The notes below the pieces were generated by a model. It did not search any database and had not been told where the DNA came from. It saw only the letters and a program-made list of their open reading frames with translations. From an uncultured Eubacteriales bacterium (lineage in GTDB: Bacteria > Bacillota > Clostridia > Peptostreptococcales > Anaerovoracaceae), in assembly GCA_902774265.1 (NCBI GenBank), contig CACYHR010000018.1, positions 46,277-110,276 on the forward strand: 64,000 bases of DNA. Reading direction: 5' to 3'. The translations under genes and the position numbers were made by a program. The stretch's first letter is position 1, and the number at the start of each line of letters is the position of its first letter. Positions 9,429 to 54,794 of this stretch are shown one piece after another.

Positions 9429-9496
9429 CCTTACGTCATATCAATTATTGTGTTTACGGTCAATGGCCGAATTGCAGCCCGCTATTGCAGCTTGTT

Positions 9497-10474: not shown

Positions 10475-10516
10475 TACTTTCTCCTCCTGTTGTTAAACAT
10501 TCAACATCTACAATTC

Positions 10517-10577: not shown

Positions 10578-10693
10578 TCCGCGGCGCTGCATGCTCCGTT
10601 TCGTAATGTGTTGTATACCTGCAGTTAAGTATATTTTACCATCGCAGATATGATGTATTTAATTGTTTTTTATAGCCGGATGATTATATTTTC

Positions 10694-11161: not shown

Positions 11162-11227
11162 AATAATTTCTCTCCCTTCATATACAGAGGATATGTTTCT
11201 TAGCAATTTTTGTTAAAAAACAAACAA

Positions 11228-11257
11228 GTATCTTGGTTATATTGTAACCAATGATAC
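11228..11257. promoter_or_regulatory. long dyad, probable LysR-type regulator site
   Basis: GTATC-TT-GGTTA-TATTG-TAACC-AAT-GATAC forms two nested perfect arms (GTATC/GATAC and TTGGTTA/TAACCAA). It sits about 67 bases upstream of the start of the small membrane protein gene and just downstream of the LysR gene. The shape fits a T-N11-A-type LysR box. Binding is inferred. Confidence 0.6.
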
Positions 11258-11290
11258 CTGATTTGTATAATTGCTAATAAACATATGATC

Positions 11291-11308
11291 TATAACCATA
11301 TAGTTATA
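11291..11308. promoter_or_regulatory. second short dyad downstream of the LysR gene
   Basis: TATAAC and GTTATA arms separated by six bases, TATAAC-CATATA-GTTATA. It lies about 35 bases from the long dyad and 34 bases beyond the LysR stop. It could be a second regulator half-site region or simply AT-rich chance symmetry. Confidence 0.35.
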
Positions 11309-11341
11309 AACGTTGAATTTCAAGGCTTCCAGGCTCTATAA

Positions 11342-38081: not shown

Positions 38082-39056
38082 TTAGTTTTGTTCGTATATC
38101 TGTTCTTCTGTAATCAACGGATAGCGTGCCAGGGAGCTTCCGTTCAGATCCTCCCTGTGCATATCTACTTTGGAGATCCGGTGATTATCATAACAGTTGT
38201 AATATTGCACTCCGGTGCGTGTATTGTAGCATGAAGTGTAGATAGTTATCTCATATTTATTGTCACCGAGATTGCAGAGTCCGCGCTGCTGCGCCACAGA
38301 TTCAAGGATGTGGAAAAACTGGCTGACGCTTGACATTTCATCATCAGCGGACAGAGAGTTCATTTTAGTGAAAGCGACTTTTGCGAACCTTGACTGCGAT
38401 GAAAGGTCTCCCGGCAGACCCATTCCGCCCATGCCTCTGCTGTATGCATCCAGTTCCAGGCCGGAGCCGAAGCTGTTCTCCGGGGTATCTGTTCTGAGAT
38501 GTCTGTAGTTATTAAGGCTGAACAGCTGCTTATCAAACGGGGGATTGTTAGTCAATACACCTACCGGGTTATCATAAACCTTAAGGCCCTCTCTGACAGA
38601 CTCGACAGTAATGACCTCATCGCTATCAGCGATTATCCAGTGAAGCGGCGAAAGAGGCAGTTTCTCACTGAACGATATATTCACGAGATTGATTTTCTCA
38701 ACCAATCTGCGAGCTTCTTTCACGCTGCTGCACTGACCGAGAATCCATGGTATAAATTCAAACGGAGTTATATTATCCTTCTCCTGATCTTCTTCAAAAT
38801 AATGCGCATTCCCTTCAAAATTAAGGCCGGCCATTCCAAGCCCTTTCTCGTTTACAGCCTCATAGTAAAGAGGATAATCCTGCGCAACGAAAGCTGTTCC
38901 GATCATAGCAAAATGACTGCTGACTGATCCCTTCCTCCTGAAATCAAACGGATAATTTCTCGGAGTGACCACAACCTCTTCCCCATATGAAAACTCATAG
39001 TCAAATGTTCTTCCGAAGTAAAAATCCTTAGTTTTATAAGTTGCTGCTGTACACAT
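38082..39056 (-). CDS. bsh: choloylglycine hydrolase (bile salt hydrolase type)
   Basis: N-terminal nucleophile hydrolase that cleaves glycine- or taurine-conjugated bile salts; 324 residues, no signal peptide. After removal of Met1, Cys2 is the nucleophile (MCTAATY). Other active-site residues match those of the Clostridium perfringens enzyme: Arg16 and Asp19 in FGRTFDY, Asn79 in AGLNF, Asn170 in GVLTNNPPF and Arg223 in SSQSRFAKVAF. GMGLPGDLSS matches the loop typical of BSH rather than penicillin V acylase. It is a single gene with its own terminator. Its presence points to a gut habitat. Penicillin acylase activity cannot be excluded by sequence alone. Confidence 0.93.
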   Translation of the reverse strand: MCTAATYKTKDFYFGRTFDYEFSYGEEVVVTPRNYPFDFRRKGSVSSHFAMIGTAFVAQDYPLYYEAVNEKGLGMAGLNFEGNAHYFEEDQEKDNITPFEFIPWILGQCSSVKEARRLVEKINLVNISFSEKLPLSPLHWIIADSDEVITVESVREGLKVYDNPVGVLTNNPPFDKQLFSLNNYRHLRTDTPENSFGSGLELDAYSRGMGGMGLPGDLSSQSRFAKVAFTKMNSLSADDEMSSVSQFFHILESVAQQRGLCNLGDNKYEITIYTSCYNTRTGVQYYNCYDNHRISKVDMHREDLNGSSLARYPLITEEQIYEQN

Positions 39057-39172: not shown

Positions 39173-40861
39173 TTACTCTGAATATCTTATTCCGAAATAC
39201 TTCATACACAGCATTGTTACATCGTCAAACTGCGGTGCATCCTGCACGAATGAAGCGAGAGCCTCATGCATCTGCTCATCTATTATCCGCGGCTCCGTGT
39301 CCGGAGTCCGGTTCAGTGCATCCAGCAGACGATCCTTTCCGAACATCTCCCCATCAGCATTATTCGCTTCTGACACACCATCAGTATACATATATATCGT
39401 ATCTCCCGGCTGCAGAGTGAATGTGCCCGGCCGGAACTTGACTCTTTTGCTCGCAGCCAGCGGTGCTCCATGAGCGCCTTCCTCTATTTCGAAATTTCCG
39501 CCCTTCCTTCGGACTACAGGATATTCATGTCCGGAGTTTACATAGGTCACTTCACCGGTGGATATTGTCAGTATGCCCATCCAGGCTGTGACGAATTTCT
39601 TCGCCTTATTTATCTCAAGCAGTTTAAGATTTACATTAGAGAAAACTTCGGCCGGATCCTGTCCGCTCGACTGTGTCTGGTTTTTGATAAGTGTTTTGGC
39701 AATGACCATGAACAGTGCCGCCGAGATTCCCTTTCCGGATACATCTCCGATCACAATAGCAAGGTGATCCTCATCTATCAGGAAGAAATCATACAGATCA
39801 CCCCCGACTTCCCTGGCCGGAATCATGGATGCATAGATATCGAACTCTGTACGTTCCGGGAAAGCCGGGAAGTCCTTTGGAAGTGTCCCTTCCTGTATCC
39901 TTGTGGCGATCATCAGCTCAGCGCCCATTCTCTCCTTCTCCGCCGTGATTTGGCGAAGTCTGAGCATAGTGTCTCTGAAATCCGTCTCCATTTCGGACAT
40001 GCTGCGCCACAGCTCTTCTATCTCATCTGAAGTCCTGATCCCAAGCGGTTCGAAGATGTATGGCGCATCATCCTGCTGATCCACCTTGTCAAGCGCCGTG
40101 TATTCGCGCGCAGCGCCTGCCAGAGACATAAGGTGGGAAATGATATGTCGTCTCAGCAGCCTTGCGGAAACAAAGGCAAGCAGGAGAACCAGAATCACGG
40201 CTGCCGGCAGCAGCACTTTCAGAAAGCGCAGAGTCCGCCCGAGGAAATCGTTCAGATCCAGATCCATTATAGCATAACCGATCTGCTTTCCCTCCGTATC
40301 ATAAATGGGTTCGTAATCCGTCCCTACCCAGCCGTACTCATCCTCATGGGTAATATGAAGACGCCATGAGGAATCTTCTATAACTTCGATTACACTGAGA
40401 TCCGCTTCCAGCCACTGTCCCGGCAGGTAAGCCCATTCCTTAGTATCACCATCTATGACATAAACGACAGCATCCCGCGAACGGTCCGTGAATATATAAG
40501 AAACATTCTTCTGTTCCGTACCCTCACGGCACTTTGCAAGTATTTCCCTTGCCTCGTAGAATTCATCATCTATAAGCGGATAACATATCTTCACAAACTC
40601 ATCGGATGTGGGATCGGAGCGTACCTCCTCAGGTATGCTCTCATAGACCTTCTTAGTCTCACGGAAAATCTTTTCCAGATATTCCTGATTCTCCAGAAGC
40701 AGTGTATAGTTGATCAGATGTCTGGATTCATTCTTATAATTACGCAGCGAAGAATAACCGTAAAGCGCAAGCCCTGTTCCGCTGCCAAGCAGGATCAGGA
40801 TGAGCGATACGATCAGTATCACCATGAAGGTCTTGGTTTTAAGGGATATCTGCTTATTCAT
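39173..40861 (-). CDS. membrane sensor PP2C/SpoIIE-type phosphatase (RsbU-like)
   Basis: 562 residues. Two membrane segments (about 11-34 and 214-232) flank an outer sensor domain with Cache-like sequence (DEYGWVGTDYEPIYDTEG, GYAIMDLDL). A HAMP-like linker and coiled coil follow. The C-terminal SpoIIE/PP2C domain carries the metal-site motifs PAREVGGDLYDFF (about 346-358), IGDVSGKGISAALFM (about 371-385), NSGHEYPVV, MYTDGVSEA and FDDVTMLC. It should dephosphorylate a STAS-domain antagonist, most likely the one encoded just upstream (gap of 17 bases). It is the last gene of the surface-protein operon. The likely job is to report an external signal to a partner-switching pathway. Confidence 0.92.
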   Translation of the reverse strand: MNKQISLKTKTFMVILIVSLILILLGSGTGLALYGYSSLRNYKNESRHLINYTLLLENQEYLEKIFRETKKVYESIPEEVRSDPTSDEFVKICYPLIDDEFYEAREILAKCREGTEQKNVSYIFTDRSRDAVVYVIDGDTKEWAYLPGQWLEADLSVIEVIEDSSWRLHITHEDEYGWVGTDYEPIYDTEGKQIGYAIMDLDLNDFLGRTLRFLKVLLPAAVILVLLLAFVSARLLRRHIISHLMSLAGAAREYTALDKVDQQDDAPYIFEPLGIRTSDEIEELWRSMSEMETDFRDTMLRLRQITAEKERMGAELMIATRIQEGTLPKDFPAFPERTEFDIYASMIPAREVGGDLYDFFLIDEDHLAIVIGDVSGKGISAALFMVIAKTLIKNQTQSSGQDPAEVFSNVNLKLLEINKAKKFVTAWMGILTISTGEVTYVNSGHEYPVVRRKGGNFEIEEGAHGAPLAASKRVKFRPGTFTLQPGDTIYMYTDGVSEANNADGEMFGKDRLLDALNRTPDTEPRIIDEQMHEALASFVQDAPQFDDVTMLCMKYFGIRYSE

Positions 40862-40878
40862 CTACCTGCAATCCGTAT

Positions 40879-41187
40879 TTACATTTCGGCATCCACCAGC
40901 TCATCAAACCCCGTCATCATGAATATATCCTTCACGGTCTCGTTGATATTGATCACTTTCACATCCGGGAGATCTTTTCCCTCCATGTATTGCTGAGCTG
41001 ACAGGATGACGCCGAGACCTGCTGATGAAATATAGTCCACATTTTTTACATCAAGTGTCAGTGACTTCGCATTCGGCAGGACAGATTCAAGCTCTTTATC
41101 TAACTTCGCAAATGTAATCGCATCGATCTTTCCTTCGGCCATTACGATAATATTTCCGTTATCTTCTATTATTTTTGTAGTTAACAT
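40879..41187 (-). CDS. STAS-domain anti-sigma-factor antagonist (SpoIIAA/RsbV-like)
   Basis: 102 residues, a single STAS domain. The conserved loop DYISSAGLGVI (51-61) holds the expected phosphorylation site, Ser54 or Ser55. LTLDVKNV and VININETV complete the fold. ATG 41187 has AGGAG eight bases upstream, and the gap to the gene before it is 14 bases. Unphosphorylated STAS proteins release an anti-sigma or other client by binding a GHKL kinase. The phosphatase is the next gene, but no stand-alone RsbW-like kinase gene is in the run. The only kinase-like fold in the window is the one fused to the ABC ATPase at 21583-22674. Confidence 0.92.
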   Translation of the reverse strand: MLTTKIIEDNGNIIVMAEGKIDAITFAKLDKELESVLPNAKSLTLDVKNVDYISSAGLGVILSAQQYMEGKDLPDVKVININETVKDIFMMTGFDELVDAEM

Positions 41188-41201
41188 GTGCAGATCTCCT
41201 G

Positions 41202-44200
41202 TTATTTATTCAACACGAGGTCGCCCAAATCAGTCCGGTCAGTCGTATAACCGCCTGTTATGGCTCCCTCTGGTTTTATGTAGTTATCATTACGATGAAC
41301 GAAAACGTGGATCCTGGAGTCCGTGATATGCATTTCTTCGGTGTCATCCCAGGCTACGCCGCCGTAATTGAGGTCAATCGGCACCTTATCTGTTGTAAGC
41401 AGATTCTCCCATCTGTTTTCCGCGACATCTTTTGGCACTCTGTCATATTGGGCAGCAGCGACAGATGTTATATATGACGCATCTTCCTGATTCTTGTCAT
41501 TGATCAGCGCTGTCGTCTGATACAGATACATCGGTTCTTTATCACTCAGACTGGTCTTGCTGACAAGTGTATATTTGTTGCCGTCAACTTTGATCGATCT
41601 CTGCGGATCATCGCCCTGATACACATACAGATCCTTAATGGCAAGTTCCATATAGTATTTGGTGCGTTTAGTCTTCGTGAACTCAGGATCATATTTGCTG
41701 TATCCCAGGTATACGCACGGAGACTTTTTCATTCCCTTGCTGAGATCGAGCGGAAGACAGTAAACTGCGCCCTGCGACAGAAGATCAGCCTGCGCTGCAC
41801 TATTGCTCCAGCCTGTACCGACATAGAAGGTATCTATCCCGAGGAGGTTTTCTGCTGTGTTCACATGCATGAACAGAGCTTCATTCTTATCTCCGTAAGG
41901 AGTAACGAGCTGTTCATCTTCGAGCACATTGCCGTAACGGTCGGTCTGTTTAGTGGTGTCACCTTTATCGACAGTCAGCACAGTAGCCATGCCGGACTCG
42001 AATACAGATTCACTTACATTGATATCTGTGATCGGTGCTGCGGCAGGACTTGCCCCTGCGCTTGTCGAAGTATACAGATAATACTTACGTCCGTTCGGCG
42101 ATGTTACCGGAGTAGCCTTTGATCCGGACAGATTCTTCACAAGACTATATGTAGCACCGCTGACTTTGATGGTATCTTTCGGAGATCCCTCGTCATCTGC
42201 CGTTTTCTTTATTATGCCGTGGATGGCTTTCCTCGGATCATTAGTATATGATACACCCAGATACGCCGCTTTCGCCGGATATTTGTTTGTACCGTATCCG
42301 TTAAACTCGTCTGCAGCATTATACCACGCTTCAGACGGATTTACTTCAAGATTCCGGTTGATTATCCCGCCTGAGGACTGAGAAAGCAGAGTGATATAGC
42401 ACAGATCATCTGCCAGCATGTCACCAGCCGCGCGTTCTTCTTCTTTCCGATCTGAGTCAGGACTGTACGCTGCAAGAGACAGCGACGCTATGTATTTTCC
42501 CTTTTCAGGAGCCGTACCCCTGATATACAGATATGTCTTGCTGCACTTATTTGCTTTTGGAGAGAAAAAGTACGACATTCTGATTGGATTCTTTTCATAC
42601 GGGAACTTGAAGTCACGCACTGATGTAAAGCCTGAAGGAGCATCCCCTCCGCTCAGCAGAATATCTTTTACCGTAAGAGGCTCGCATCCCTTCTTTACTC
42701 CCGATACATAGAGCGCCTTAGGCTGCCAGTTTACTGCATCCCATTTTACACCCGGAAGAGAGTTATCCTCAGTCTGCCCGAAATAACGATTTGCCCGACC
42801 CTGTTCTACAAGGAAATCGTTAAATACGCTCTGCTCTTTGTGATACATAAACTTTTTTCTTCCATCGCCCGACAAACTGCCGTCAATGGTCTCGTCCTGT
42901 ATAAACACAGTTGATACAGAATATCCCGTCTCGCTTGCGTCTCCTGAGCCGGATTCAGTCATCGCGGTTATAGTCGGCAAAAAGTACATCATCTTCGGGG
43001 TTCCGGTATAAAGCTTTATATCGTAGATCGCCCGTTTCGGATCATGCGTTGTCGTATAGCAAAGATATGTGCGGAAGTCTTCGATTTCAATAGTAGCTGT
43101 GCGGCCCATGGCAGCCACGCTTTCTTTCCATACCTTGCCCTTTGTCAGATCGGCACTTAACATTACTCCTCCGAGCCTCTCTGCAAAATCTTCAAGTGAA
43201 TATCCGCTCTCTTTTGCATCTCTTCCCGCAACAAAGAACAGACCTGATATGTATTCTTTTCCTTTCGCATCGGCATCTGACGGAGTGAAGAATATGTATC
43301 TGCTCTTGTCCCATCTGGTATTGTCACTAATTTGATCGAAATTATATGCAGGACCGCCAAGATAGCATACAGGCTCGCTTTCCTTTTTTGCTTCAGAAAT
43401 ACTGTCCAGCACCTGCAGTCTGTCCGCACGGATAGGAGAGCCGGCGCTTTCATCTTTAGTGTAGCATATAGAGTTCTCACGTGCGTCGTAGCCCGCTGCA
43501 GTATATTTAACATTTCCGTACATCACAGCCTGGCTTGTAGACTTCGTCCTCACCATGCGTATATCCGTGACTGCAGCGTCTTTGTTTTTGGTTACAGTAT
43601 AGCCAAGATATGTATACATCTTTTTTGTCACAGTGCCGAATATGTTTTCATCGCCTGTAGAAGGAGACAGGTTGACATCTATTGTCTTGTAGCCCTTCTT
43701 GGTCAGGTTGAGCTTTGCTTCTGTTTCATTGTCGGCACAGGAAAGATACAGCGTCGATATATAGCCGTCGGGCATATCGAGCTCCTGATTTTCAGATTCC
43801 TGATCATCCTCCCCATCGCGGACAGCAGTCGTATTTGCTTTGGTGCCCGGTGATGAATAGAACAGATATATCTGACTTGCGTCCGAATTTTTCACATTGG
43901 CATTCAGGTTAGCTGCATATATCTCATCAAAGTTTCTTACCGGAGCATAGCCCTCCGGATTTACGGAATTTCCAACCTGTACGATAAATGCCGATTTGTC
44001 TTCAGGCACGGTTATCGGTCTGCCGGATTCTGTATTTTTAGAGTAGTACAGCGCATTCCACTGCTTTCCGTTATATGCGTTGACATCGCCCTTCCCGTCC
44101 GGGTCCCGTATCAGGTCGTATCTCAGCAGCCCGTTGCTTCCCGACAGATTATCATCAGTGCTGAGATCCATCGCGATCTCAGGTATTGCCGTGTAATCAA

Positions 44201-46019
44201 GCTCATCGCATTCAGGTTTAAATGTCTCATATAACCAGACTATCACCATTATGACAATGGCTACAATCAGCACTATCGTGGTAATCGCGGTCAGTACTGC
44301 AGCTACTTTTCCCATACATGCAAACACCATGTATGTAGTGAAGTGCTGGCAGTACCAGAGAGCTGCATCAGTCGCAACTGCCTGCACAATAGCGTTCGGA
44401 ATCATTAAAAGCGCCACAACACCTCCCGCTATCTTAGAAGCGGTCTGTGCTATTGATGAAACATTCTCAAGCACCTGTATAACCTTGTTTCGCTTGACCA
44501 TGTTATCGGCTGTATTTTTAATATTTGTATAACGCTGCGCATCGCCTGTCACTGCGACCGTTTTGCTGAACATATCCTGATCGACGCCCGACCATACGGA
44601 TATAACATCCTTTCCTTCCAGTTCACGACATGCAGCTTTTGCTTCCTTCAGTTTTTTATTCAGTTCGCCTTCCTGTGATGAGAGGTCGAACAGATAAAAT
44701 GCGGAGCTGCAGATACCCGTAAGTTCAGTTGTAATGATCTGGCCATTTGTCATCGCAGCAGTCAGAGGGTAGAGCTGTCTAAGTTCTTTCTTATCAGCCA
44801 GTTTCAGACATCCCATATCTACCAGCCAGTCTCCCAGCTGAATCTCATCGCTGTATCTGAACTGATTGAGCATGTCATGCGCGAGGACGTAAATCGAATC
44901 AGTCCCCTTTTCATTCATTTCTTCAGCTGTGGCCTCATCCGGAGAAATCTCGGGAATCTCACCACCGTTGCTTTCTGCGCGGACTATCGCAGTCTGATAC
45001 TTTGTCGCATAGTCCTGAATTACTGTTACAAGGCGTTCGGTATCATCAAGATACTTTTTGTCAAGTTCCGCGTAAGGATCTCTGCGCGGCTCTTCCTCAT
45101 CCTCTTCAGGTTCCGCAGATTCCGGCGTAGTTAAAACCTCTTCAGGCTCCGTAGTCTCTGCATCTTCTGCAGGATTTTCTGTTACTTCAGGATTTTCCGG
45201 CTCTTCAGGATTATTATTCACTTCCGGCGATTCAGGATCTGTGACATCCTCCGGATTTTCATTCACTTCTTCATTTGCTTTTTTGTTCCGCTTATCATCC
45301 TGATCATCTTCGAACTTCTCTCTTAATCCGTATACCCGTGAAGCCCATGTATTGTCAGGATCGTCTGAAACGCCGAGAGTAAGCTGTCCCAGTATCGTTG
45401 TTGTCACTACCGCAGTAGATTGCAGGAAAAGCTTCTTCAGAGTCTTCTGATCGACGGAACCGCCGACAAAATAATCGCCAAGCAGCTTCCCGGTCTCAGG
45501 AATCGTGAACAGATTAAGATAATCCCTTGCGATCTCAGCGTTGCGGCTCCCCTTGTCCAGCCTGTCCGCAAATTCATTTATTGTCGCATACTCATCAGCA
45601 ATAAATCCGTCGAGCTGCGGGTACTGACGTTCAACCAGCTCATAATAATTGATAGTGCTGAAGCCGGATGTCATCTGCATCATGCGGACATCTGTTACCG
45701 CCTGGTCGGCGTCTTTGGTTGTCTGATATCCGAGGATCACCGATCCTCCTTCCGCACCTGTATTAAGATCTCCATCCACAGGGATGTATCCGTCCTTCGT
45801 ACACATCTCCTTCGCTTCCTGCGGAGTATCTGCGGTATACATCCTTACATCACTCACATACTCTGTCTGCGGCGCCTTTGACTCAGCCAGGATCTGAATG
45901 ACAGGTCCATAATGCAGTAAAACCATGGTAAAGACAAGCAGGAAAGCCACTGCGGCAAAAAGGTTTCGGTTCTTTCTGTTAAATAATCTCCCGAATGGTA
46001 TAGATTTAAGCGTCTTCAT
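41202..46019 (-). CDS. giant membrane-tethered multi-repeat surface protein, unknown family
   Basis: 1605 residues. An N-terminal membrane segment (about 19-45) is followed by a first repeat-like module (about 52-120), a Glu/Pro/Asn-rich linker (about 240-325), a helical region, then two hydrophobic stretches (about 530-548 and 563-600). Residues from about 640 to the end are five or so modules of roughly 190-200 residues. Each has a YI(S/A)xLxL start, GYxxIDxDL, YLGYxxTxDxxxAI(T/Y)DI, then a weaker second half with ALYYS and a P-x-GY step. YLGYTVTKNKDAAVTDIRM and YLCYTTTHDPKRAIYDIKL show the repeat. The pattern resembles beta-prism (MABP-type) repeats, but that is a guess. The ATG overlaps the beta-helix gene by 14 bases, so the two are translationally coupled. 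Confidence 0.8.
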   Translation of the reverse strand: MKTLKSIPFGRLFNRKNRNLFAAVAFLLVFTMVLLHYGPVIQILAESKAPQTEYVSDVRMYTADTPQEAKEMCTKDGYIPVDGDLNTGAEGGSVILGYQTTKDADQAVTDVRMMQMTSGFSTINYYELVERQYPQLDGFIADEYATINEFADRLDKGSRNAEIARDYLNLFTIPETGKLLGDYFVGGSVDQKTLKKLFLQSTAVVTTTILGQLTLGVSDDPDNTWASRVYGLREKFEDDQDDKRNKKANEEVNENPEDVTDPESPEVNNNPEEPENPEVTENPAEDAETTEPEEVLTTPESAEPEEDEEEPRRDPYAELDKKYLDDTERLVTVIQDYATKYQTAIVRAESNGGEIPEISPDEATAEEMNEKGTDSIYVLAHDMLNQFRYSDEIQLGDWLVDMGCLKLADKKELRQLYPLTAAMTNGQIITTELTGICSSAFYLFDLSSQEGELNKKLKEAKAACRELEGKDVISVWSGVDQDMFSKTVAVTGDAQRYTNIKNTADNMVKRNKVIQVLENVSSIAQTASKIAGGVVALLMIPNAIVQAVATDAALWYCQHFTTYMVFACMGKVAAVLTAITTIVLIVAIVIMVIVWLYETFKPECDELDYTAIPEIAMDLSTDDNLSGSNGLLRYDLIRDPDGKGDVNAYNGKQWNALYYSKNTESGRPITVPEDKSAFIVQVGNSVNPEGYAPVRNFDEIYAANLNANVKNSDASQIYLFYSSPGTKANTTAVRDGEDDQESENQELDMPDGYISTLYLSCADNETEAKLNLTKKGYKTIDVNLSPSTGDENIFGTVTKKMYTYLGYTVTKNKDAAVTDIRMVRTKSTSQAVMYGNVKYTAAGYDARENSICYTKDESAGSPIRADRLQVLDSISEAKKESEPVCYLGGPAYNFDQISDNTRWDKSRYIFFTPSDADAKGKEYISGLFFVAGRDAKESGYSLEDFAERLGGVMLSADLTKGKVWKESVAAMGRTATIEIEDFRTYLCYTTTHDPKRAIYDIKLYTGTPKMMYFLPTITAMTESGSGDASETGYSVSTVFIQDETIDGSLSGDGRKKFMYHKEQSVFNDFLVEQGRANRYFGQTEDNSLPGVKWDAVNWQPKALYVSGVKKGCEPLTVKDILLSGGDAPSGFTSVRDFKFPYEKNPIRMSYFFSPKANKCSKTYLYIRGTAPEKGKYIASLSLAAYSPDSDRKEEERAAGDMLADDLCYITLLSQSSGGIINRNLEVNPSEAWYNAADEFNGYGTNKYPAKAAYLGVSYTNDPRKAIHGIIKKTADDEGSPKDTIKVSGATYSLVKNLSGSKATPVTSPNGRKYYLYTSTSAGASPAAAPITDINVSESVFESGMATVLTVDKGDTTKQTDRYGNVLEDEQLVTPYGDKNEALFMHVNTAENLLGIDTFYVGTGWSNSAAQADLLSQGAVYCLPLDLSKGMKKSPCVYLGYSKYDPEFTKTKRTKYYMELAIKDLYVYQGDDPQRSIKVDGNKYTLVSKTSLSDKEPMYLYQTTALINDKNQEDASYITSVAAAQYDRVPKDVAENRWENLLTTDKVPIDLNYGGVAWDDTEEMHITDSRIHVFVHRNDNYIKPEGAITGGYTTDRTDLGDLVLNK

Positions 46020-48114
46020 CTGTCCCGGCTGCCTCCTTCCTGCGTTTCATGTATATCAATATGCATATCACTGCAGCCAGAATTATCAGCCCCGCAATGA
46101 TTATTATGATAGAAGCATTTTCGGAAATAACGGACGCGACAAGAGGCGTCATTACGACATGTAAATTCTCAGTTCTGATAGTTCTGCCGGACTTGTCAGG
46201 ATGTATATATTTCATAGCGTTAAATACACTGACATTCTTCGCAATCGTCACTTTGCCTGATGTTGTCGAGCTGACGCCGACGTACGAGCCGTCATACAGC
46301 CCTCCGCTGTATATCATGGCCGTTGATGCCATACCGTCCTGCAGCGACAGATTACTGGTCCCTTCGGAAGATTTGTTATTACGGATGACCATCTTCCCCG
46401 CCATTTCAATATCTTTCAGCGAATCGACATAGATGCCGCCGCCGTCTTCGCCGGTTGCGGTATTATCGGTGATCGATGTGTTCAGGAAATATACTTTGAT
46501 GGAGTTAAGATAGAAAGCGCCGCCCTCCCCTGCTTTGTTTTCTTTGAATGTACAGTTTTGAAAGGTAGTCGGAGCTACAGCACCGGCTGCTGCATCATCG
46601 ATTGTATAGACCGCTCCGCCGCAATCACCGGATTCACAGTTCCGGAATTTATGTTTTATGAACTGCTGCGAAGTGTCGCCGCCGTTACGGGTAACCAGAT
46701 AGACGCCTCCGCCATCGTCTGCCGCATAACATCCGTTCCACTCACAGTCGGTCATCTTGAGCCAGCCGGCCTGATAATACATCCCGCCGCCGTAATCCTC
46801 GGCTCTGCACTGCCGGATGGTGCTTCCTTTGATTCCCAGCTGATATTCTGACTCATCATAGATGCCGCCGCCGTCTTCAGCCTTGCAGTTTTTTATATCC
46901 ATCCCGTCCGCATTCATCCCGGACTCTTTTGTCATAAAGATCCCGCCGCCGAAATCATCAGCGTCGCAGTCTAAGATTGTAATATTTTTAACCTCGGCAA
47001 ATGCGTCTCCGTCAAGAACAATACCGCCGCCGTTTTCATCTGAGTCGCAGTCATCGATCGTAACGTCTTTGAGCTCGGCTTTTGCGGCTTCCGTAAGGAA
47101 TATGCCGCCGCCGTTCTCTTCTGCATCGCAGTAGTTGATCTTAGTGCCGTCAAGCCTGAGATCGCCCTTGCAGTAGATCGCTCCGCCGTTTTCATCTGTA
47201 TCGCAGTTTGAAATCGTACAGCCGTTAATGCTCAGCGATCCGCCGGTGTCGACATAGATGCCGCCGCCGTCATTATCTGACAATCCGTTTATCAGTACGC
47301 CTCCCTTGATCTTTGTGCTGTTTTTGCGGTCACTCTTTGAGTCAATGATATTAAGACCGGCGCCCCTATTCACATAGAACAGCCGGCCGTCAAAAGTACT
47401 CTTTCTGCCGGCATTCTCTCCCTTGATGGCATAACCATTGAGGTCAAGAGTTATATTATCTGTTTTGACCTCTATAGGAGCTGTCAGCTCGACATCAGAC
47501 ATCAGTCTGATAGTTTGTTTGCTGTCTTTATCAGCCTCTTTGAATGCCGATGCGAGGGACTCCATTTCACGTTCAAACCCTGTATCCTCGTCAATAAGAC
47601 TCATGATCGGCACCTCCGGAAGAACAAAGATGCGCCAGGTTGCAGATGAATTGAATGGAGATGACCACGCCGAGTATTCTTCCTCCATGACAACATTGTT
47701 CTGGAAGATGTATCTTACCTTACCTGACTGATTACGCACAGTCATTCCGCCGCCGAAGTCCATATAAAACTCAAGCTGAAATGGTCTTGCGAACGATTCA
47801 TTAAGGTCGATAGATATCTTGTCACCCTTCGACATATCATCTTTAATGTCCAGGATCTTCGTATGAGATTTCCCGTTTTTGTCGTAGTATAAAATCCAGA
47901 ATTCCGCTCTATTCCATCCGTTCGCGTGTGAATCGGTAGTAATCTCAAACACACAGCGGTTAAAAGTATCACTGTACAGCACGATCGCATCTGATCTGCT
48001 GATAAAACATGAAACAAAAAGCAGACACAGTAAAACCGCGGGCATCAGACGCATGAATATGACACGCGTCAAACCCGGACCTGATTTCCTATATTTGTCT
48101 GAGGTCTTCTTCAT
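46006..48114 (-). CDS. membrane-anchored right-handed beta-helix surface protein
   Basis: 702 residues; ATG 48114 has AGGAGG seven bases upstream. Signal or anchor segment at about 16-40. After a non-repetitive N-terminal domain (to about 200), residues 200-590 are about twelve beta-helix coils with the motif C/N-x-A/S-E/D-(D/E)-x-GG(G/A)I(Y/F), for example CDSDENGGGIVLDGDA and CKAEDGGGIYDES. The GG(G/A)I pattern is that of polymorphic outer membrane protein and pectate-lyase-like helices. A C-terminal membrane segment (about 665-690) with a basic stop-transfer tail (MKRRKEA) anchors it. Cys residues recur once per coil. It is probably an adhesin or scaffold exposed outside and is coupled to the giant repeat protein encoded next. 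Confidence 0.88.
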   Translation of the reverse strand: MKKTSDKYRKSGPGLTRVIFMRLMPAVLLCLLFVSCFISRSDAIVLYSDTFNRCVFEITTDSHANGWNRAEFWILYYDKNGKSHTKILDIKDDMSKGDKISIDLNESFARPFQLEFYMDFGGGMTVRNQSGKVRYIFQNNVVMEEEYSAWSSPFNSSATWRIFVLPEVPIMSLIDEDTGFEREMESLASAFKEADKDSKQTIRLMSDVELTAPIEVKTDNITLDLNGYAIKGENAGRKSTFDGRLFYVNRGAGLNIIDSKSDRKNSTKIKGGVLINGLSDNDGGGIYVDTGGSLSINGCTISNCDTDENGGAIYCKGDLRLDGTKINYCDAEENGGGIFLTEAAKAELKDVTIDDCDSDENGGGIVLDGDAFAEVKNITILDCDADDFGGGIFMTKESGMNADGMDIKNCKAEDGGGIYDESEYQLGIKGSTIRQCRAEDYGGGMYYQAGWLKMTDCEWNGCYAADDGGGVYLVTRNGGDTSQQFIKHKFRNCESGDCGGAVYTIDDAAAGAVAPTTFQNCTFKENKAGEGGAFYLNSIKVYFLNTSITDNTATGEDGGGIYVDSLKDIEMAGKMVIRNNKSSEGTSNLSLQDGMASTAMIYSGGLYDGSYVGVSSTTSGKVTIAKNVSVFNAMKYIHPDKSGRTIRTENLHVVMTPLVASVISENASIIIIIAGLIILAAVICILIYMKRRKEAAGTDEDA

Positions 48115-48235
48115 GCGGAACCTCCTATGTGTCTTAGCGGGGAAAGTTGTCCATGTATATTAAAGATGCTGAAGAGTGCAGTACTCTGTCTCATGCGTAC
48201 AGTATGCGTATAGCATGTGTATACTATGAATGAGA

Positions 48236-48883
48236 TCAGGAAGCAGATGAACTCTTGCGTATGCGTATGAGAGCTATAACTATCGGAATATATGTCAGTG
48301 TAGGCATGATTGCCCCGGCATATCTGTAATCAGACTGGATCAGAGTGTTATAAATCGAATGGTATACGACAGCCATGGAATATAGCGCGAAAGTGCCGCA
48401 TATAACAAGCTTTCTGTGGATTTTGATCAGCGATATACCCATACCTACCATTGTCGTGCATAGGCTGTGGAGCAATCCGGCACCGAGCGTGCGGATAAGC
48501 GCCCATATATAATTTACATGTCCGTCAACAAGAATAGTCTTTACCAGAATAGTTGAATTCTCCATGAGTGCAAAGCCGAGCCCTGTTACAAAAGCTATAG
48601 TAAGCAGCTCTTCACGTTCACGCGAAATAAAAGCCGCAAACAGAACGACCGGTATCATCTTGATCAGTTCTTCGGTCATCGGCGTAATATTTGTCGTAAA
48701 ATAGTAAAGCGAAAGCCCGAGCCATTCATTGATCAGCCCGTCCAGTTCGCTTATGAACAGGCAGCAGCTCATCCCTATTATGATAAACAGAAGGATGACG
48801 CGGGATTCTTTGCGAACGACAGGAATACCCAGAAGGAACGGAAGTGTGAAACAAATATATACGATATACGCTATGCTCTCCAT
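48236..48883 (-). CDS. PrsW-family intramembrane metalloprotease
   Basis: 215 residues, about seven membrane segments. Motifs of the PrsW family are present: TEELIKMIPV (EExxK, Glu71-Glu72), GFALMENS (Glu108-Asn109) and LLHSLCTTMVGMGI (His139). In Bacillus subtilis PrsW makes the first cut in the anti-sigma factor RsiW. Here no anti-sigma gene is adjacent, but the gene is inside an operon of surface proteins with membrane anchors, any of which could be the substrate. ATG 48883 has AGGAGG nine bases upstream and overlaps the end of the preceding gene by 13 bases. The gap to the beta-helix gene downstream is 121 bases. Confidence 0.85.
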   Translation of the reverse strand: MESIAYIVYICFTLPFLLGIPVVRKESRVILLFIIIGMSCCLFISELDGLINEWLGLSLYYFTTNITPMTEELIKMIPVVLFAAFISREREELLTIAFVTGLGFALMENSTILVKTILVDGHVNYIWALIRTLGAGLLHSLCTTMVGMGISLIKIHRKLVICGTFALYSMAVVYHSIYNTLIQSDYRYAGAIMPTLTYIPIVIALIRIRKSSSAS

Positions 48884-49542
48884 TTATTCATCCCTCCTAC
48901 CAGTACAGGCATCAGCAGAAGGCTGATCACATACATCGGAATATATACGACTGCCCATGCAGGCAGAAAAGTGACATTATAGCACCACAGAATATTCTCC
49001 ACCATCAGGCAGGCAGACATGATAAATGACAGAATATGGAACGGCTTGAATGATTTGAGTATCCCCATATAGCGATTCGGTATGATGGTATGTTTATAGT
49101 CATAATATGACGTCGCCCCAAGGAAAAGCACCTCTATTGCGCACGGGATTCTGAGGCTGGGATGCGCCGGGGAAAAAACTATGATCACTGCTCCGAGTAT
49201 GAACAGTAATGGCGCAAAATATGCTTTGCGGCGATACTTGGTCAGCATCTGCGACTTGTCATCGACCAGCGAATCGAAGGTGCCGTAGTTTGCAGAAAAA
49301 ATAAACAGGGAGTAGCCTATGAATCCGAGAATACTGACCTGGAACAGATCAGGCAGATCCCCTTCAACTATGATTTCCACGATACTGGAAAGGCGCGCAA
49401 GAAAAAGACAGCCCATAGCGCAGCCTACCATCTTGAGATATATCGATCTCCTGATTCTGAATACTCTGATCAGTGCATAGATAAACCCCGCAAGAGCGCA
49501 TAAACACAAAAGACCATTTCCGATTATATCAACAGAAAACAA
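48871..49542 (-). CDS. multi-pass membrane protein of unknown function
   Basis: 223 residues with six to seven hydrophobic segments. The start is TTG 49542, supported by GGGAGG seven bases upstream and no better in-frame ATG. A polar central loop (GTFDSLVDDKSQMLTKYRRK) separates segments three and four. I do not recognise the family; the shape recalls 7TM intracellular-signalling receptors but is short and has no output domain. Its end overlaps the PrsW-type protease gene, so the two are likely partners, perhaps as protease and regulator. It follows the giant adhesin gene by 77 bases. Confidence 0.7.
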   Translation of the reverse strand: MFSVDIIGNGLLCLCALAGFIYALIRVFRIRRSIYLKMVGCAMGCLFLARLSSIVEIIVEGDLPDLFQVSILGFIGYSLFIFSANYGTFDSLVDDKSQMLTKYRRKAYFAPLLFILGAVIIVFSPAHPSLRIPCAIEVLFLGATSYYDYKHTIIPNRYMGILKSFKPFHILSFIMSACLMVENILWCYNVTFLPAWAVVYIPMYVISLLLMPVLVGGMNKWRA

Positions 49543-49619
49543 GCAAAAGCCTCCCTGTAATTAATTCATGCGGCAATTGTACAGTAAAAATATTAGCATA
49601 CATTCTTAGACCGGTCAAA

Positions 49620-52600
49620 CTACCTGACCTTTGTCCTGATCGTCTTATATACGCCATTCTGGGCATAGGCATACACATAACACGTGCCCTTTGTCTTTGC
49701 CTTTATCACGCCCTTACTGCTGACGGTCGCGATATCGGTATCTGAAGACTCATACCTCAATCCGACATACTTCTTTATCCTGAGCTTACTGCTGTTTTTG
49801 ACCGCTTTAGCTTTCAGCTTAAGAGTCCTGCCCGCCCGCAGCTTCGCGGCATTTCTGAGAACTGACTTGTTCACCTTTACGCTCTTATAATTGCCGGTTT
49901 TTCCTCCCTTTGAAGCTGTGTATATCGATTTTGACGTGAATATGACCTTATTGTCATTGTCAGCGGCAACAATGACGAACTTGTACATCGTTCCCTTTCT
50001 GATTTTTTTGCCGCTGAGCTTAGTGATCTTTTTCGAAGTAGCGCCGCCTTTAAGCTCTGCGATCTTCTTCATCTGCGAACTGCTTCCGCAGCGGCTGCCA
50101 TAGATAAGATACTTTGATGCGCCCTTCACTCCTGACCATTTCAATGTCACAGACTTTGAAGTCTGTTTAGTGCTTCTGAATTTAAGCTGAGCAAAGCTCG
50201 ATCCCTTCGGCTCTTCATTTGCTTTCAATGCGGTGATTTCCTCTTCAGCTGTTTCAAGCGAGGCGCCCGGTCCTGAACCGCCTTCTCCTCCGTCGGACGG
50301 TTTAAGTTTAGGAATTTCTCTTGTCTCAACATGTGCTTCATTCTCTTTGCATACACGGGCCTCTGTTCCCTCCTCGTATTCCGTCGGAGGAGTCGTAACA
50401 GTCCATTCGCCCCATACATGAGAATCAGGATCGACAGGTATTACGACACGTTCAGGTGTCCCCAGTACTTTGCCGCAGTTAATGCATCTTGTAGTCAGAT
50501 TATATCCGCCTACACTGCTGCATGTAGCCTTTGTTACATCACCTTCATTTGCAGGAGTCCCTCTCTTATGCCCTCTTGCAGGAATATAAATATCTTTCAT
50601 GGACACCGGAGTCTTGCCTGCTTCATCAGCGAACCATCCCCCGCAGTCCTGACATTCATAGTATGTCTTCCTACCGAAATGCTCGCATTCCGCGTCACTT
50701 CCTTCGATCAGTTTCATATTATGAACATGCTCGCCCGGCACAAGTTTAGGGATCACGCGCTGATCCTTGTGGTTTCCGTTCCTCTTGCAGAATCTTTCCT
50801 CCAGACCGGTTTCAGTTTCTGTAGCCTGTTCCTTTACAGTCCAACCACCCCAGTCATGTCCGATCGGTTCAATATCCGACATATTACTTGTTTTTGTTGT
50901 AAAAGCCTTATTGGTGAAGCTTGCCGTATATTCCGTAATACCCGCTTCTTCACATGTCGCTTGCTTTGTTACCTTCGATGTTGTATTGACAGTTTCGGTC
51001 TCAACATGAGCCGGATCACGTCTGCATACGCGTTTTGCAGTCACCGTTTTGCAGTCAGCAGCCCATTCGTATGTGGCTTCTCCCCAGTTATGCACATGCC
51101 ATACAGCCCTGAGTGTAAAATGCTTTTTCACCGGTTTACTGAAGTCATAGAAATCATCTTCACCTTCGATCTTCCAGCCTTCAAAAACACTGCCTGCTTT
51201 TACAGGGTCATCAGGCTTGCTGAGAGTCTCGCCTTTTTTCACTGTCCTGGACCCTATCTCAGATCCGCCGTCAGTATTGAATGTCACAGTGAATTCATTC
51301 GGCTCGGACAGCATTACTTCGCCATCACCGGCGAGCATTAAATCATACGATTTGTCATCGCTGCTGAAGTATTTTGCCGGAGCGTTGCTGCCCATCTTTG
51401 ATTTATAGCCTGCAGTGAAAACTCCGCCGGAGCTCTTTGTAACTCCTATGTCCGCATCCTCTTTCAGGACGCCGTCGATGGTGATCTTCCTGCTGCCGCT
51501 GCTGTCGCTGCTGCTCTCCAGGCACAGATTGTAAGCCAGCTTGCCTTTGGTGTTGTTTCTGATGACCGGAGCACCAGAAACATTCATCGTTCCTGCTTTA
51601 ACGAATACTCCGCCGCCTTCGTTCTTCTCAATATCTCCACCTCTCATATCGAAGCTGCCTTGATCAGTGATATACACGCCTGCTCCGTCCTCAGCCTCGT
51701 TAACATTTCTGATATATCCGCCCGTCATTTTGAATGAAGCAGTATTGCAGACATCCACAGCGCCGCCGCAGTTTTCCAGTGCAGTATTTCTGCCGAACTC
51801 GCCGCCGCTCATTTCGAAGCTGCCGCTGTACGCGCAGACTCCGCCGCCGCTGAACTTAGCGGTATTGCCGTAAATATTGCCGCCGCTTATTTCAAAGCTG
51901 CTTCCGCCGTTTATGAATACCGCTCCGCCGCAGCCCTTTGCTGCAGCTCCGCCGCTTTGACTTTCTTCGCCGGCATCTCCGGTAACAGCCTTATTGCCCT
52001 TTAATTGACCGCCTGTCATGATAAATGATGCAGAACGCTCCAGGTATACAGCGCTTCCGCAGGCACTCGAATTACCACGGATCTCTCCGCCTTCCATGCT
52101 GAAGTATCCGTTATCTCCGACATATACGCCTGCCCCGTTGCTTTCCGGATTTTTGAATCCGCTGATTTCACCGGACTTCATCGTGAAAGCTCCGCCGTTT
52201 GATACTTCTACTCCTATCCCCGTATCCGCGCCGCTGATAACAGCGCCATTAAGCACGAGTTCCGCGAGATTCGTTACGGTGATACAGGTCGAATCTTTTG
52301 AAATGATCCTGCCCGGACTGCTCGTTTTGCTGTCTTTAATCGTGAGATTATAATTGCCGTCAAGTATGACTGCGCCCTTGATCTCAGAGCCATCCAGGGT
52401 GATGCCGTCAAGATCAAGGGTGACGCCATTAGCCCTGACTGCAAGAGGCTTATCTCCTTTTTTCGCCCTGAAAGTATCTGAATCCACGCGATAATCACTT
52501 GCCTTAACTACAGCTCCGGCTTTTGCGTCATAAAGTTTCTGCTGCAGACACTGCCAGTCAGATTTGTATACGGCTATAAATGCAATGTCTTTTTCAACTT

Positions 52601-54683
52601 TGATCTTATCTCCGGGATAAAAGTATTCGTCACCATCGCTGCCGGTGAGCTTCCAGCACAGGAAGTGCTTGCCTGCCGGAATCCCCCTTTCCAGGGCCGG
52701 CGGCAATTCAGGCATCGTATATTCAGCGCCATACTGCAAAGTCTGCCCTCCATGCTCTCCTCCGGGCATTCCCGGCAGTCCCGGCTGATTTCTTAAGTCA
52801 ACAAATACACTCTCGCCGCGCCACTGCGCAATAATGCTTATGCTGTCATCTATGGTTATTTTGTCCCCCGGCTTGTATAAGGTATCATCATTGCCGATCT
52901 TCCAGCCGGTGAACTGCTTGTGTTCTATCTCAAAATCGCATTCCGGGAATTTATATTCAGCCCCCTTCGCTATTTCCAGATATTTGAGCCCGCTCGTAGC
53001 ATCCATGCTTGGAGCGATAGTAACGGTCCTCCTGTCCGACCATATCGCTTTTATTGTTACATCCTGTTTAAGAGCAAGAAATACCGATTCGGCAGGCAGG
53101 ATCTTTCCGTCCATCTCCCATCCTAATAACATCTTTTTCCGGCTCGGAGGATCGACCACTTCAGCATCAGGCAGATGGAATTTATGATCTTTGTCCGCTT
53201 CATTGACCTGACTCAGTCCATAGCCGCATATGCTGCATGCAGATGATCCTGTAGCCGGATATTTATGAGATTCCGTCGGATAATTACTATAACCGCAGTA
53301 ATCACATTTCTGTTTATGTGTTGTTTCTGTTTTCTCGTAAAATTTATCGGGATGGTTGCAGACCTCAATGCGGGCACTGTAATTGTCCCGGCATGCACTT
53401 TCGCGTTCGCCCGCCGGATATGTTTTGGTGAAATTATCACTGCTGCGTCCGGCCTGTACCTTCATGTTGCCGGCTATGTCCAGTCTGTTATTATCTCTGT
53501 CGTTTTTGCCGGCACCGATCGCGCGCCATCCGCCTGATGCGACCACTACACCGCCGCCGATATATACATTGGCGCCTTCACCGCCTCCGCCCAGCAGGCC
53601 TTCTCTTCCGCCTCCTATGCCGGCCGCGCCGTCGCCGCCTGTTGCAGTCACAGTGCCGCTGTTGATCGTTACATGTCCGTCATCAGCATTACCTTTGTTT
53701 CCGCCTCCTATGCCGGCCGCGCCGTCACCGCCTGTCGCGCTGATGATTCCGCCGTTAATGATAACAGATCCTTCAAGGTCCTCGTCTTCACCGCCTATAC
53801 CGGCATCCTCGGAGGAGCTTGCGACAAGTCTGCCTCTTTTGCCTTTCTGACCCCAGATCGTCAGACTTCCGCCTTCACCGATATGGATACCGTCAGTTGC
53901 GGTGAACGTGCAATCATCCGGAAGGATCAGGTCGACATCTCCCGATACATTTACATGGCCGAATCGGGTATTATCAACTATTGTGTACCAGCCGCTGCCC
54001 ATATTCTGATCTGCAAGACGACAATCCGCTGTTTCCTCCTTGCTGTCATGTGTCGTATCTATATAATTTGTCCTGATACAGGCGCTTGCATGTTTAAGAA
54101 AAATCTCATTTCCATATTCTATGCATCCGGATTTCACCAGACTGTCCCATCTTTCCTGACTGCCCCTGAAGTACACGGTCTGCAAATTGCCGCAGCCGGA
54201 AAAAGCTTCGCGTTCTATCTTTTCCAATCCGGACGGAAGCACGACTGACTTCACTCCGCTGTTTATAAAGGCGCGTTCTTCAATTTCGGTAACGCTGTTC
54301 CCTATAATAACGCTTTTAATACTCCCGCTGTTCTTGAAAGCCCACATGCCAACATTTGTGATACCGTCTTCTATCACTATTCTGTCTATGCTTCCGTATC
54401 TTGCCCAGACAGGATTAAAATGCTCCCCATAATAACCGCCCATGTATCCTCTTCCGGAAATGGTCAGTGTACGCTCGTTAGTCAGCTGGTTTTCGGTCAG
54501 CGTCCATCTGACAGAAAAACTATCAGTACGATCACCGTCACCGCAGAATCCGTCAGCGATCACGTATTCATCTTCATCATACGCAAACACCGTCGTCGGC
54601 ATCACCACAGGCATCATGATGAACATGACGAACATGACGCTGATTGCAATCAATATGGTAAACAGATTTTTTTTAATACTCAT
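49620..54683 (-). CDS. giant secreted mosaic adhesin (LRR, beta-helix, InlB-type repeats, Fn3, BIG2)
   Basis: 1687 residues from ATG 54683 (MSIKKNLFTIL), with AAGGG upstream; a GTG at 54692 is less likely. The signal peptide ends near VFAYD. Modules in order: BspA-type leucine-rich repeats (about 95-195, for example SVTEIEERAFINSG), Gly-rich beta-helix turns with repeated GDGAAGIGGG (about 290-400), three InlB-type beta-grasp repeats ending FTGWKI-like (about 520-715), a second beta-helix with SFEMSGGEFGRN-type coils (about 790-1110), another InlB-type repeat, four Cys-containing HxWGxWT modules (about 1195-1460), an Fn3-like domain (about 1505-1590) and a C-terminal BIG2-like domain. There is no LPXTG anchor. 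It is likely a host- or matrix-binding protein and is first in the surface operon. Confidence 0.9.
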   Translation of the reverse strand: MSIKKNLFTILIAISVMFVMFIMMPVVMPTTVFAYDEDEYVIADGFCGDGDRTDSFSVRWTLTENQLTNERTLTISGRGYMGGYYGEHFNPVWARYGSIDRIVIEDGITNVGMWAFKNSGSIKSVIIGNSVTEIEERAFINSGVKSVVLPSGLEKIEREAFSGCGNLQTVYFRGSQERWDSLVKSGCIEYGNEIFLKHASACIRTNYIDTTHDSKEETADCRLADQNMGSGWYTIVDNTRFGHVNVSGDVDLILPDDCTFTATDGIHIGEGGSLTIWGQKGKRGRLVASSSEDAGIGGEDEDLEGSVIINGGIISATGGDGAAGIGGGNKGNADDGHVTINSGTVTATGGDGAAGIGGGREGLLGGGGEGANVYIGGGVVVASGGWRAIGAGKNDRDNNRLDIAGNMKVQAGRSSDNFTKTYPAGERESACRDNYSARIEVCNHPDKFYEKTETTHKQKCDYCGYSNYPTESHKYPATGSSACSICGYGLSQVNEADKDHKFHLPDAEVVDPPSRKKMLLGWEMDGKILPAESVFLALKQDVTIKAIWSDRRTVTIAPSMDATSGLKYLEIAKGAEYKFPECDFEIEHKQFTGWKIGNDDTLYKPGDKITIDDSISIIAQWRGESVFVDLRNQPGLPGMPGGEHGGQTLQYGAEYTMPELPPALERGIPAGKHFLCWKLTGSDGDEYFYPGDKIKVEKDIAFIAVYKSDWQCLQQKLYDAKAGAVVKASDYRVDSDTFRAKKGDKPLAVRANGVTLDLDGITLDGSEIKGAVILDGNYNLTIKDSKTSSPGRIISKDSTCITVTNLAELVLNGAVISGADTGIGVEVSNGGAFTMKSGEISGFKNPESNGAGVYVGDNGYFSMEGGEIRGNSSACGSAVYLERSASFIMTGGQLKGNKAVTGDAGEESQSGGAAAKGCGGAVFINGGSSFEISGGNIYGNTAKFSGGGVCAYSGSFEMSGGEFGRNTALENCGGAVDVCNTASFKMTGGYIRNVNEAEDGAGVYITDQGSFDMRGGDIEKNEGGGVFVKAGTMNVSGAPVIRNNTKGKLAYNLCLESSSDSSGSRKITIDGVLKEDADIGVTKSSGGVFTAGYKSKMGSNAPAKYFSSDDKSYDLMLAGDGEVMLSEPNEFTVTFNTDGGSEIGSRTVKKGETLSKPDDPVKAGSVFEGWKIEGEDDFYDFSKPVKKHFTLRAVWHVHNWGEATYEWAADCKTVTAKRVCRRDPAHVETETVNTTSKVTKQATCEEAGITEYTASFTNKAFTTKTSNMSDIEPIGHDWGGWTVKEQATETETGLEERFCKRNGNHKDQRVIPKLVPGEHVHNMKLIEGSDAECEHFGRKTYYECQDCGGWFADEAGKTPVSMKDIYIPARGHKRGTPANEGDVTKATCSSVGGYNLTTRCINCGKVLGTPERVVIPVDPDSHVWGEWTVTTPPTEYEEGTEARVCKENEAHVETREIPKLKPSDGGEGGSGPGASLETAEEEITALKANEEPKGSSFAQLKFRSTKQTSKSVTLKWSGVKGASKYLIYGSRCGSSSQMKKIAELKGGATSKKITKLSGKKIRKGTMYKFVIVAADNDNKVIFTSKSIYTASKGGKTGNYKSVKVNKSVLRNAAKLRAGRTLKLKAKAVKNSSKLRIKKYVGLRYESSDTDIATVSSKGVIKAKTKGTCYVYAYAQNGVYKTIRTKVR

Positions 54684-54794
54684 AATAATCACCCTTTATT
54701 TCGGAAGCAGTTGCCGTAATTAAATCTGCATTATCCATCTATATCATCCGGATCTGCAGGAACTTCATCTCTAATACTACCCTCTGATGCAGCA

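Follow-up and report, generated by a model that had tools for sequence, protein, structure and literature searches.

A stretch of 64,000 nucleotides (nt) from an uncultured Eubacteriales bacterium (GenBank assembly GCA_902774265.1, contig CACYHR010000018.1; the whole stretch is referred to as the window) carries seven closely spaced minus-strand genes, in which predicted surface proteins stand side by side with a seven-transmembrane (7TM)-like protein, a PrsW-type intramembrane protease, a STAS protein and a SpoIIE-type phosphatase. This raises the question whether these genes work together as one device, in which the protease or the phosphatase reports the state of the surface proteins to the cell, as the initial annotation of the locus had proposed, or whether separable signalling genes are carried by a surface-protein operon. 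Based on the observed gene content, gene pairing, clade structure, sequence motifs and presence of kinases in the genome, we consider that the window probably holds a lineage-specific surface-protein operon carrying two portable signalling cassettes and not one seven-part machine. Complex formation, the substrate, the direction of signalling and a shared control of the surface genes would be suggested by gene order and motifs, from which we also infer the mechanism described below. The main interest lies in the pair formed by the 7TM-like protein and PrsW (7TM–PrsW) and in a clade of such pairs, including that of the window, without an adjoining sigma factor gene. In the order of transcription, the seven genes are as follows:

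49620..54692, minus strand: giant secreted mosaic adhesin, 1690 residues (open reading frame, ORF; Pfam LRR_5 and Flg_new; signal helix 13–31)
48871..49542, minus strand: 7TM-like membrane protein, 223 residues, TTG start (ORF; near-constant gene upstream of PrsW)
48236..48883, minus strand: PrsW-type intramembrane protease, 215 residues (PF13367, 3.1e-18; motif residues; 13-nt overlap with the 7TM gene)
46006..48114, minus strand: right-handed beta-helix surface protein, 702 residues (PF13229, 8.9e-30; helices 18–36 and 669–687; basic tail)
41202..46019, minus strand: repeat protein, 1605 residues, with a signal helix (ORF; sequence; helices; without known family)
40879..41187, minus strand: single-domain STAS protein, 102 residues (PF01740, 1.8e-11; TIGR00377, 1.8e-15; alignment to PDB 1sbo and 6m36)
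39173..40861, minus strand: membrane-anchored SpoIIE/PPM phosphatase, 562 residues (PF07228, 4.7e-48; helices; PDB alignments; motifs)

When recomputed from the ORF coordinates, the seven minus-strand ORFs, the gene order and the length of every gap and overlap agreed with the initial annotation. From the phosphatase upwards, the spacing is 17 bp (phosphatase/STAS), 14 bp (STAS/1605-residue ORF), −14 bp (an overlap of the 1605-residue and beta-helix ORFs), 121 bp (beta-helix/PrsW), −13 bp (an overlap of PrsW and 7TM) and 77 bp (7TM/adhesin). Position 54683, where the module had been taken to end, is an internal ATG of the adhesin gene, and GTG 54692 is the start of the longest frame. Pfam backed five of the seven proteins, while the search revealed no family above the cut-off for the 7TM and the 1605-residue proteins. 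In the adhesin, LRR_5 (PF13306, 4e-15) and Flg_new (1.1e-12) were detected, along with Big_2 below the cut-off (0.0012), which corresponds to BspA-type LRR and Listeria-Bacteroides repeats in a secreted protein, as in BspA-type adhesins. A foreign origin was considered from base composition and rejected, the operon genes (41–49% G+C) showing nothing striking compared to the window (46%). On fetched loci, genes were called with a simple ORF picker, longest frames first, which may misplace starts and hide overlapped genes, and orthology was judged from identity and coverage.

The 7TM–PrsW pair and its sigma factor neighbours

PrsW proteases are known to cut anti-sigma factors, and their activation is, to our knowledge, poorly understood. 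The protease of the window scored 66.5 bits against a cut-off of 23.5 for PF13367 and harbors the motif residues E71 E72, E108 N109, H139 and H175, which are common to a second PrsW on contig C51 of the same genome; these glutamates and histidines we take to be catalytic. In 296 family genomes, 52 PrsW matches were found. Altogether, 39 PrsW places were examined, namely 34 of these matches (the 30 best, three more, and that on C51) and five loci on public contigs. A 7TM gene was located directly upstream and on the same strand in 38 of them, with its stop codon falling between −16 and +2 nt relative to where the PrsW match begins, the exception being a Flavobacteriales contig without a 7TM gene. 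The 7TM model comprised 22 sequences from 21 of the 39 places; in the 18 places outside model training, some of which may be near relatives of training genomes, the gene was found 17 times. In the reverse direction, a search with the 7TM alignment against 341 genomes of the class resulted in 13 matches in 11 genomes, and PrsW followed all 12 free-standing ones, two of them this genome's own and ten new. The thirteenth, on contig C73 of this genome (locus L174, 1–2121), combines a 7TM domain with dCache and HD domains in one frame, which reaches the end of the fetched stretch. Since the family also occurs in this fusion, the 7TM protein may serve as a signal-input domain.

Distances among the 7TM proteins and among their PrsW partners correlated with r = 0.90 over 45 places (0 of 2000 permutations as high), as co-inheritance would predict and with shared species history contributing. 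The PrsW with the best score in this genome, on contig C6, served as a control and lacks a 7TM partner. Overall, the pair was seen in this family and in seven other families of the class. A known family for the 7TM protein was sought with 21 members against Pfam and rejected, as only one match each to four families appeared, all below the cut-off, and no description of the pair was found in the literature searched, which consisted mostly of titles and abstract openings. The near-constant gene before PrsW is a concrete, testable candidate for the sensor.

Genes for extracytoplasmic function (ECF) sigma factors were looked for in the 26 of the 39 places with longer flanks, using a model for which eight of nine sequences came from the same places where ECF genes were counted. 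Outside the window's clade, 19 of 20 places carried an ECF gene on the same strand within 6 kb, in 18 cases between −1292 and −1685 bp and in one case downstream (genome G282, +978); the sole miss was genome G289, where the upstream sequence extends for just 1.1 kb. Within the clade of the window, the count was zero of six (the window and genomes G135, G110, G103, G295, and G195, with less than 1 kb upstream in G135). In the window itself, no same-strand ECF match was found up to 6 kb from the pair; what it shares with ECF/anti-sigma/PrsW loci is the 7TM gene directly before PrsW. PrsW proteins of this clade are 37–42% identical to that of the window, and a search for more of them at the order level (E ≤ 1e-28) returned only the window's own, G110 and G103, i.e., 3 of 393 genomes. 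The 7TM proteins of the clade are related to the rest (hhalign 96.6%), but distant; their profile finds four entries of the other clade below 0.01, two of which are the same gene. When 366 ORFs from loci of this genome were scanned, the 7TM profiles hit nothing but the 7TM genes.

A small membrane protein of about 100–125 residues is often encoded between the ECF and 7TM genes and would be the natural anti-sigma candidate, while a second small membrane protein is frequently encoded between PrsW and a large secreted protein. The recurring ECF-7TM-PrsW order with large secreted proteins nearby points to a recurrent control of large surface proteins. In this genome, contig C51 (G000, locus L049, 4074–6391) displays an ECF sigma factor, a 113-residue membrane protein, 7TM and PrsW in this order, with large secreted proteins around the locus and a phosphatase fragment at the contig start.

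In the first cassette, the 7TM protein would act as a membrane sensor or regulator of the PrsW encoded directly after it. At ECF-type loci, PrsW would cut the small membrane protein, the candidate anti-sigma factor, and the sigma factor would be freed. In the window's clade, without the sigma half, PrsW may act on a neighbouring anchored surface protein, for which the beta-helix protein is the best candidate, or on an anti-sigma factor encoded elsewhere. That the window pair serves an ECF anti-sigma factor in trans, e.g., the small membrane protein on C51, appears distinctly unlikely: the contig offers the complete set of ECF sigma factor, membrane protein, 7TM and PrsW, but it has its own pair, and the two PrsW proteins are only 27% identical. 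Compared to Bacillus subtilis PrsW, the site-1 protease of regulated intramembrane proteolysis in the sigma-W/RsiW system, the PrsW family and its glutamate/histidine motifs are shared, and most examined relatives of the window pair lie beside an ECF gene as well, whereas the near-constant 7TM partner gene and the lack of an adjoining ECF gene in the window's clade are different.

The phosphatase–STAS pair and kinase genes of the genome

The phosphatase consists of a transmembrane helix, a region between the two helices which is presumed to be the sensor, a second transmembrane helix, and a catalytic domain with the motifs GGD, GDVSGKG, TDGV, and FDD. By alignment to solved relatives, these metal-binding-type motifs are intact, as in SpoIIE/PPM phosphatases, and we take them to be metal-binding or catalytic residues. 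In the STAS protein, S55 occupies the same alignment position as the serines of RsbV (PDB 6m36) and TM1442 and is thus predicted to be phosphorylatable, presumably at the position of the RsbV/SpoIIAA phosphoserine.

A search of 346 family genomes revealed a phosphatase match in 144. Among the candidates scored, at most four per genome, so that absence is no proof, two close relatives were found outside this genome. One of them, in genome G041 of the same genus, is full length, 70% identical and follows a STAS gene, and no ORF on its 13-kb contig matches the adhesin, beta-helix, 1605-residue, 7TM or PrsW protein of the window. Its STAS protein is 35% identical to that of the window and 47% to that of contig C25; therefore, the kind of pair recurs and not the exact STAS. 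The other, in genome G294 (locus L088, 10729–11736), is 70% identical over residues 2–310 in a frame that ends at 335 residues, and no STAS gene was found beside it. In the window's own genome, a phosphatase of 61% identity and a 102-residue STAS protein (39%) on C25 follow an NHLP peptide exporter and a Nif11-type precursor; the locus (L053, C25 of G000, 54001–74000) shows from 287 to 11387 the Nif11-type precursor, a YcaO-type gene and the NHLP exporter, then SpoIIE phosphatase and STAS. On contig C53, a phosphatase of 48% identity lies among three small genes like the C25 precursor and a LanM-like gene below the family cut-off, with an adhesin-like frame about 9 kb away.

No HATPase_c_2 match was found on the window's contig (C18), so that the operon lacks the kinase gene of a partner-switching system. 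The initial annotation had expected this gap to be filled elsewhere, and candidates do exist. The genome holds 15 SpoIIE matches (12 strong), five STAS matches and 11 HATPase_c_2 matches, two of which are short stand-alone frames on contigs C11 and C27, i.e., solo RsbW-like kinases. While that on C11 (locus L016, 5068–5484) matches RsbW in PDB (6.6e-6) and precedes an NHLP exporter, that on C27 sits between a STAS gene and a STAS-APH fusion. The absent kinase is best explained as encoded in trans. Partner switching also seems linked to peptide export in this genome, because the C25 phosphatase–STAS pair follows an NHLP exporter and the C11 kinase precedes one.

Twenty phosphatase loci of relatives were inspected, and the phosphatase was located in 19 (none was found by the ORF picker in L098). 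A C-terminal kinase domain, 38–55% identical to the kinases of C11 and C27, is present in ten of the 19; in one case the kinase is encoded by a separate adjoining gene, and in nine a STAS gene lies no more than four ORFs away. A phosphatase, often kinase-fused, next to a STAS protein of about 390–417 residues like that of C27 was recurrently observed (L089, L093, L095, L096, L097, L103, and L017, 8984–11094). The second half of the C27 protein is an APH-type phosphotransferase, and the output of such loci may be a small-molecule kinase rather than a sigma factor. In regard to RsbU/RsbV/RsbW and SpoIIE/SpoIIAA/SpoIIAB, the membrane phosphatase, the single-domain STAS protein with its serine and the RsbW-like kinases in the genome are alike; differences are the kinase-less operon of the window, the kinase-fused phosphatases of relatives and the STAS-APH-like proteins beside some of these.

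In the second cassette, the membrane phosphatase would sense an outside cue and dephosphorylate the STAS protein at Ser55, which would then bind an RsbW-like kinase encoded in trans on C11 or C27, which other phosphatases of the genome may share. We infer that this cassette is one input arm of a genome-wide partner-switching network.

The idea of one dedicated unit, in which all seven genes belong together and PrsW or the phosphatase reports the state of the surface proteins to the cell, is highly unlikely in the light of these loci. The tight co-oriented packing would speak for it, as would the C53 phosphatase with its adhesin-like frame and, on the fetched loci of this genome, the share of large secreted proteins among same-strand phosphatase neighbours (5/19 versus 26/350 other genes, p = 0.015); by visual inspection, one of these five resembles a hybrid histidine kinase, so that four remain. 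In the loci of relatives, however, this enrichment is not significant (2/24 versus 10/266, p = 0.26), and the pairs of G041 and C25 do without homologs of the surface genes, the latter lying behind a peptide exporter. A SpoIIE phosphatase near PrsW was seen in 2 of 26 places searched, both in this genome (the window and C51), and in none of the 24 places of other genomes; SpoIIE beside 7TM–PrsW as a general rule was rejected. Moreover, the 1605-residue protein was found at full length only in the window's own genome, i.e., in 1 of 47 genus genomes and in 1 of 247 family genomes among the candidates scored, which were at most two per genome, absence thus being no proof. With the phosphatase and STAS occurring without the surface genes and the 1605-residue protein confined to this genome among those searched, conservation of the whole module was rejected. 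The initial annotation had itself named a STAS/SpoIIE pair without the surface genes in related genomes as an observation that would refute its proposal; such pairs occur, and the comparison does not support a dedicated unit.

Surface proteins near PrsW and candidate substrates

Secreted proteins are enriched near 7TM–PrsW, with 29 of 70 ORFs near versus 17 of 132 far (Fisher 8e-6), 'secreted' and 'anchored' being assigned by a simple hydrophobicity rule. Together with the conservation of the pair, this gives better support to the earlier view of a link between protease and surface proteins than there is for the dedicated seven-gene set. The beta-helix protein of the window combines an N-terminal hydrophobic signal with a C-terminal helix (669–687) and a basic tail, and this combination was found in 4 of 70 ORFs near and 0 of 132 far (p = 0.014, only a guide). 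The four anchored neighbours of 7TM–PrsW are:

Window: beta-helix protein, gene adjoining PrsW
Genome G295: 288-residue protein, gene directly upstream of the pair
Genome G195: 694-residue PI-PLC-like protein, gene directly upstream of the pair
Erysipelotrichaceae, locus L137: 1677-residue collagen-repeat protein

In a wider script pass over three locus groups (699 ORFs of at least 200 residues), the additional hits were a 249-residue protein in locus L150, about 7 kb from PrsW, and two PrsW proteins, both of them multi-helix false positives.

The sigma-less clade of the window raises the question whether such a protease acts directly on surface proteins. As a sheddase, 7TM–PrsW of this clade would act at the membrane, cleaving neighbouring proteins that carry a C-terminal anchor, without the participation of a sigma factor; we regard this as possible, if somewhat unlikely. 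The position of the anchored beta-helix gene beside PrsW, the anchored proteins whose genes immediately precede the pair in G295 and G195, the near versus far counts and the lack of ECF genes in the clade are all consistent with it. Intramembrane enzymes beside proteins with a C-terminal transmembrane anchor are also a feature of rhombosortase/exosortase-type processing; the enzyme beside C-terminally anchored proteins is alike, but the enzyme family differs, the tails being compared by reading only. A role of PrsW in the processing of surface or exported proteins, polymorphic toxins included, was proposed in one paper (PMC3482391); there, PrsW is fused to the processed protein, whereas it is encoded here by a separate gene with a 7TM partner. 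The same paper gives the anti-sigma factor RsiW as the known PrsW client, which argues against a sheddase. A further-reaching version, in which 7TM–PrsW is an undescribed two-protein protease with the 7TM protein gating PrsW, originally served ECF release for surface proteins, and became a regulated sheddase when the sigma factor was lost in the window's clade, seems unlikely.

Several points weigh against our preferred reading of a surface-protein operon with two portable cassettes, and the first of them apply equally to a sheddase. The anchored neighbours are few, the criterion for them was drawn up after three of the four cases had been seen, and the locus of the fourth (L137) includes an ECF gene; an anchored neighbour is missing in G103 and G110, and G135 shows downstream genes only. 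The substrate of PrsW, its cleavage and the complex with the 7TM protein remain predictions. In regard to the 7TM family, it is uncommon at the class level (11 of 341 genomes), three of the ten new matches of the reverse search are partial frames, and an ECF gene was seen in only five of these ten places, with flanks of 1.5 kb. The 7TM profile of the other clade finds two of the six members of the window's clade (3e-7 and 0.006), the window's own not being one of them. Finally, the STAS protein of the window is linked to a kinase by family only, with those on C11 and C27 as candidates.

The 1605-residue protein, transcription signals and flanking genes

Apart from its signal helix, the 1605-residue protein revealed more hydrophobic helices at about 522–604 and recurring stretches seen by eye, and its best match to PDB sequences had an E-value of 0.6. 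A resemblance of the repeats to MABP/beta-prism found no support in sequence searches, as five segments gave no such match in Pfam and there was none to PDB sequences. Elsewhere in the same genome, three matches cover only part of the protein, roughly residues 1–193 (contigs C1, C8, and C92). Three closely similar paralogs of its N-terminal domain, of 744–757 residues, were observed in loci L014 (8308–10542), L015 (115–2370), and L013 (123–2396), two of them near contig ends; they display a C-terminal hydrophobic stretch and a basic tail. These paralogs had escaped the anchored-protein script, and no neighbouring PrsW was noticed in the sequence that had been fetched for them.

Two further features concern the extent of the transcript:

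49590..49618, minus strand: promoter-like site between the adhesin and 7TM genes (weak), TTGACC-17-TAATAT, the second hexamer being preceded by TG
38082..39056, minus strand: choloylglycine-hydrolase-family (CBAH) gene (PF02275, 1.1e-99), 116 bp downstream of the phosphatase gene

The promoter-like site is of the extended −10 type and precedes the 7TM gene within the gap of 77 bp, so that a single transcript of the seven genes is not assured. It was graded weak because the region holds 32 such sites compared to 27.9 expected in shuffles (standard deviation 6.4), i.e., barely more. Upstream of the adhesin gene, a TATAAT at 54800–54795 is close to position 54790, from which the initial annotation had suggested a single transcript. 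Two or more independent transcripts lying side by side by chance, functionally unlinked, are rather unlikely: the promoter-like site, the gaps of 77 and 121 bp and the separability of the cassettes in other genomes would fit, but STAS, phosphatase and 1605-residue genes are packed at 14–17 bp, all seven genes lie on one strand, and promoter-like sites hardly exceed the shuffles.

Downstream, the CBAH gene lies on the same strand, and a terminator-like site was looked for in the 116-bp gap without one being called; an eighth operon member is therefore conceivable, and the CBAH gene is a possible one. On the other side, a gene for a UDP-glucose/GDP-mannose dehydrogenase with an N-terminal helix-turn-helix domain (55188–56705) is divergent from the operon. 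Short similar stretches in the 121-bp gap (48115–48235) and an inverted repeat GGTCA...TGACC by the end of the adhesin gene (49603–49619) were seen by eye and may be operators.

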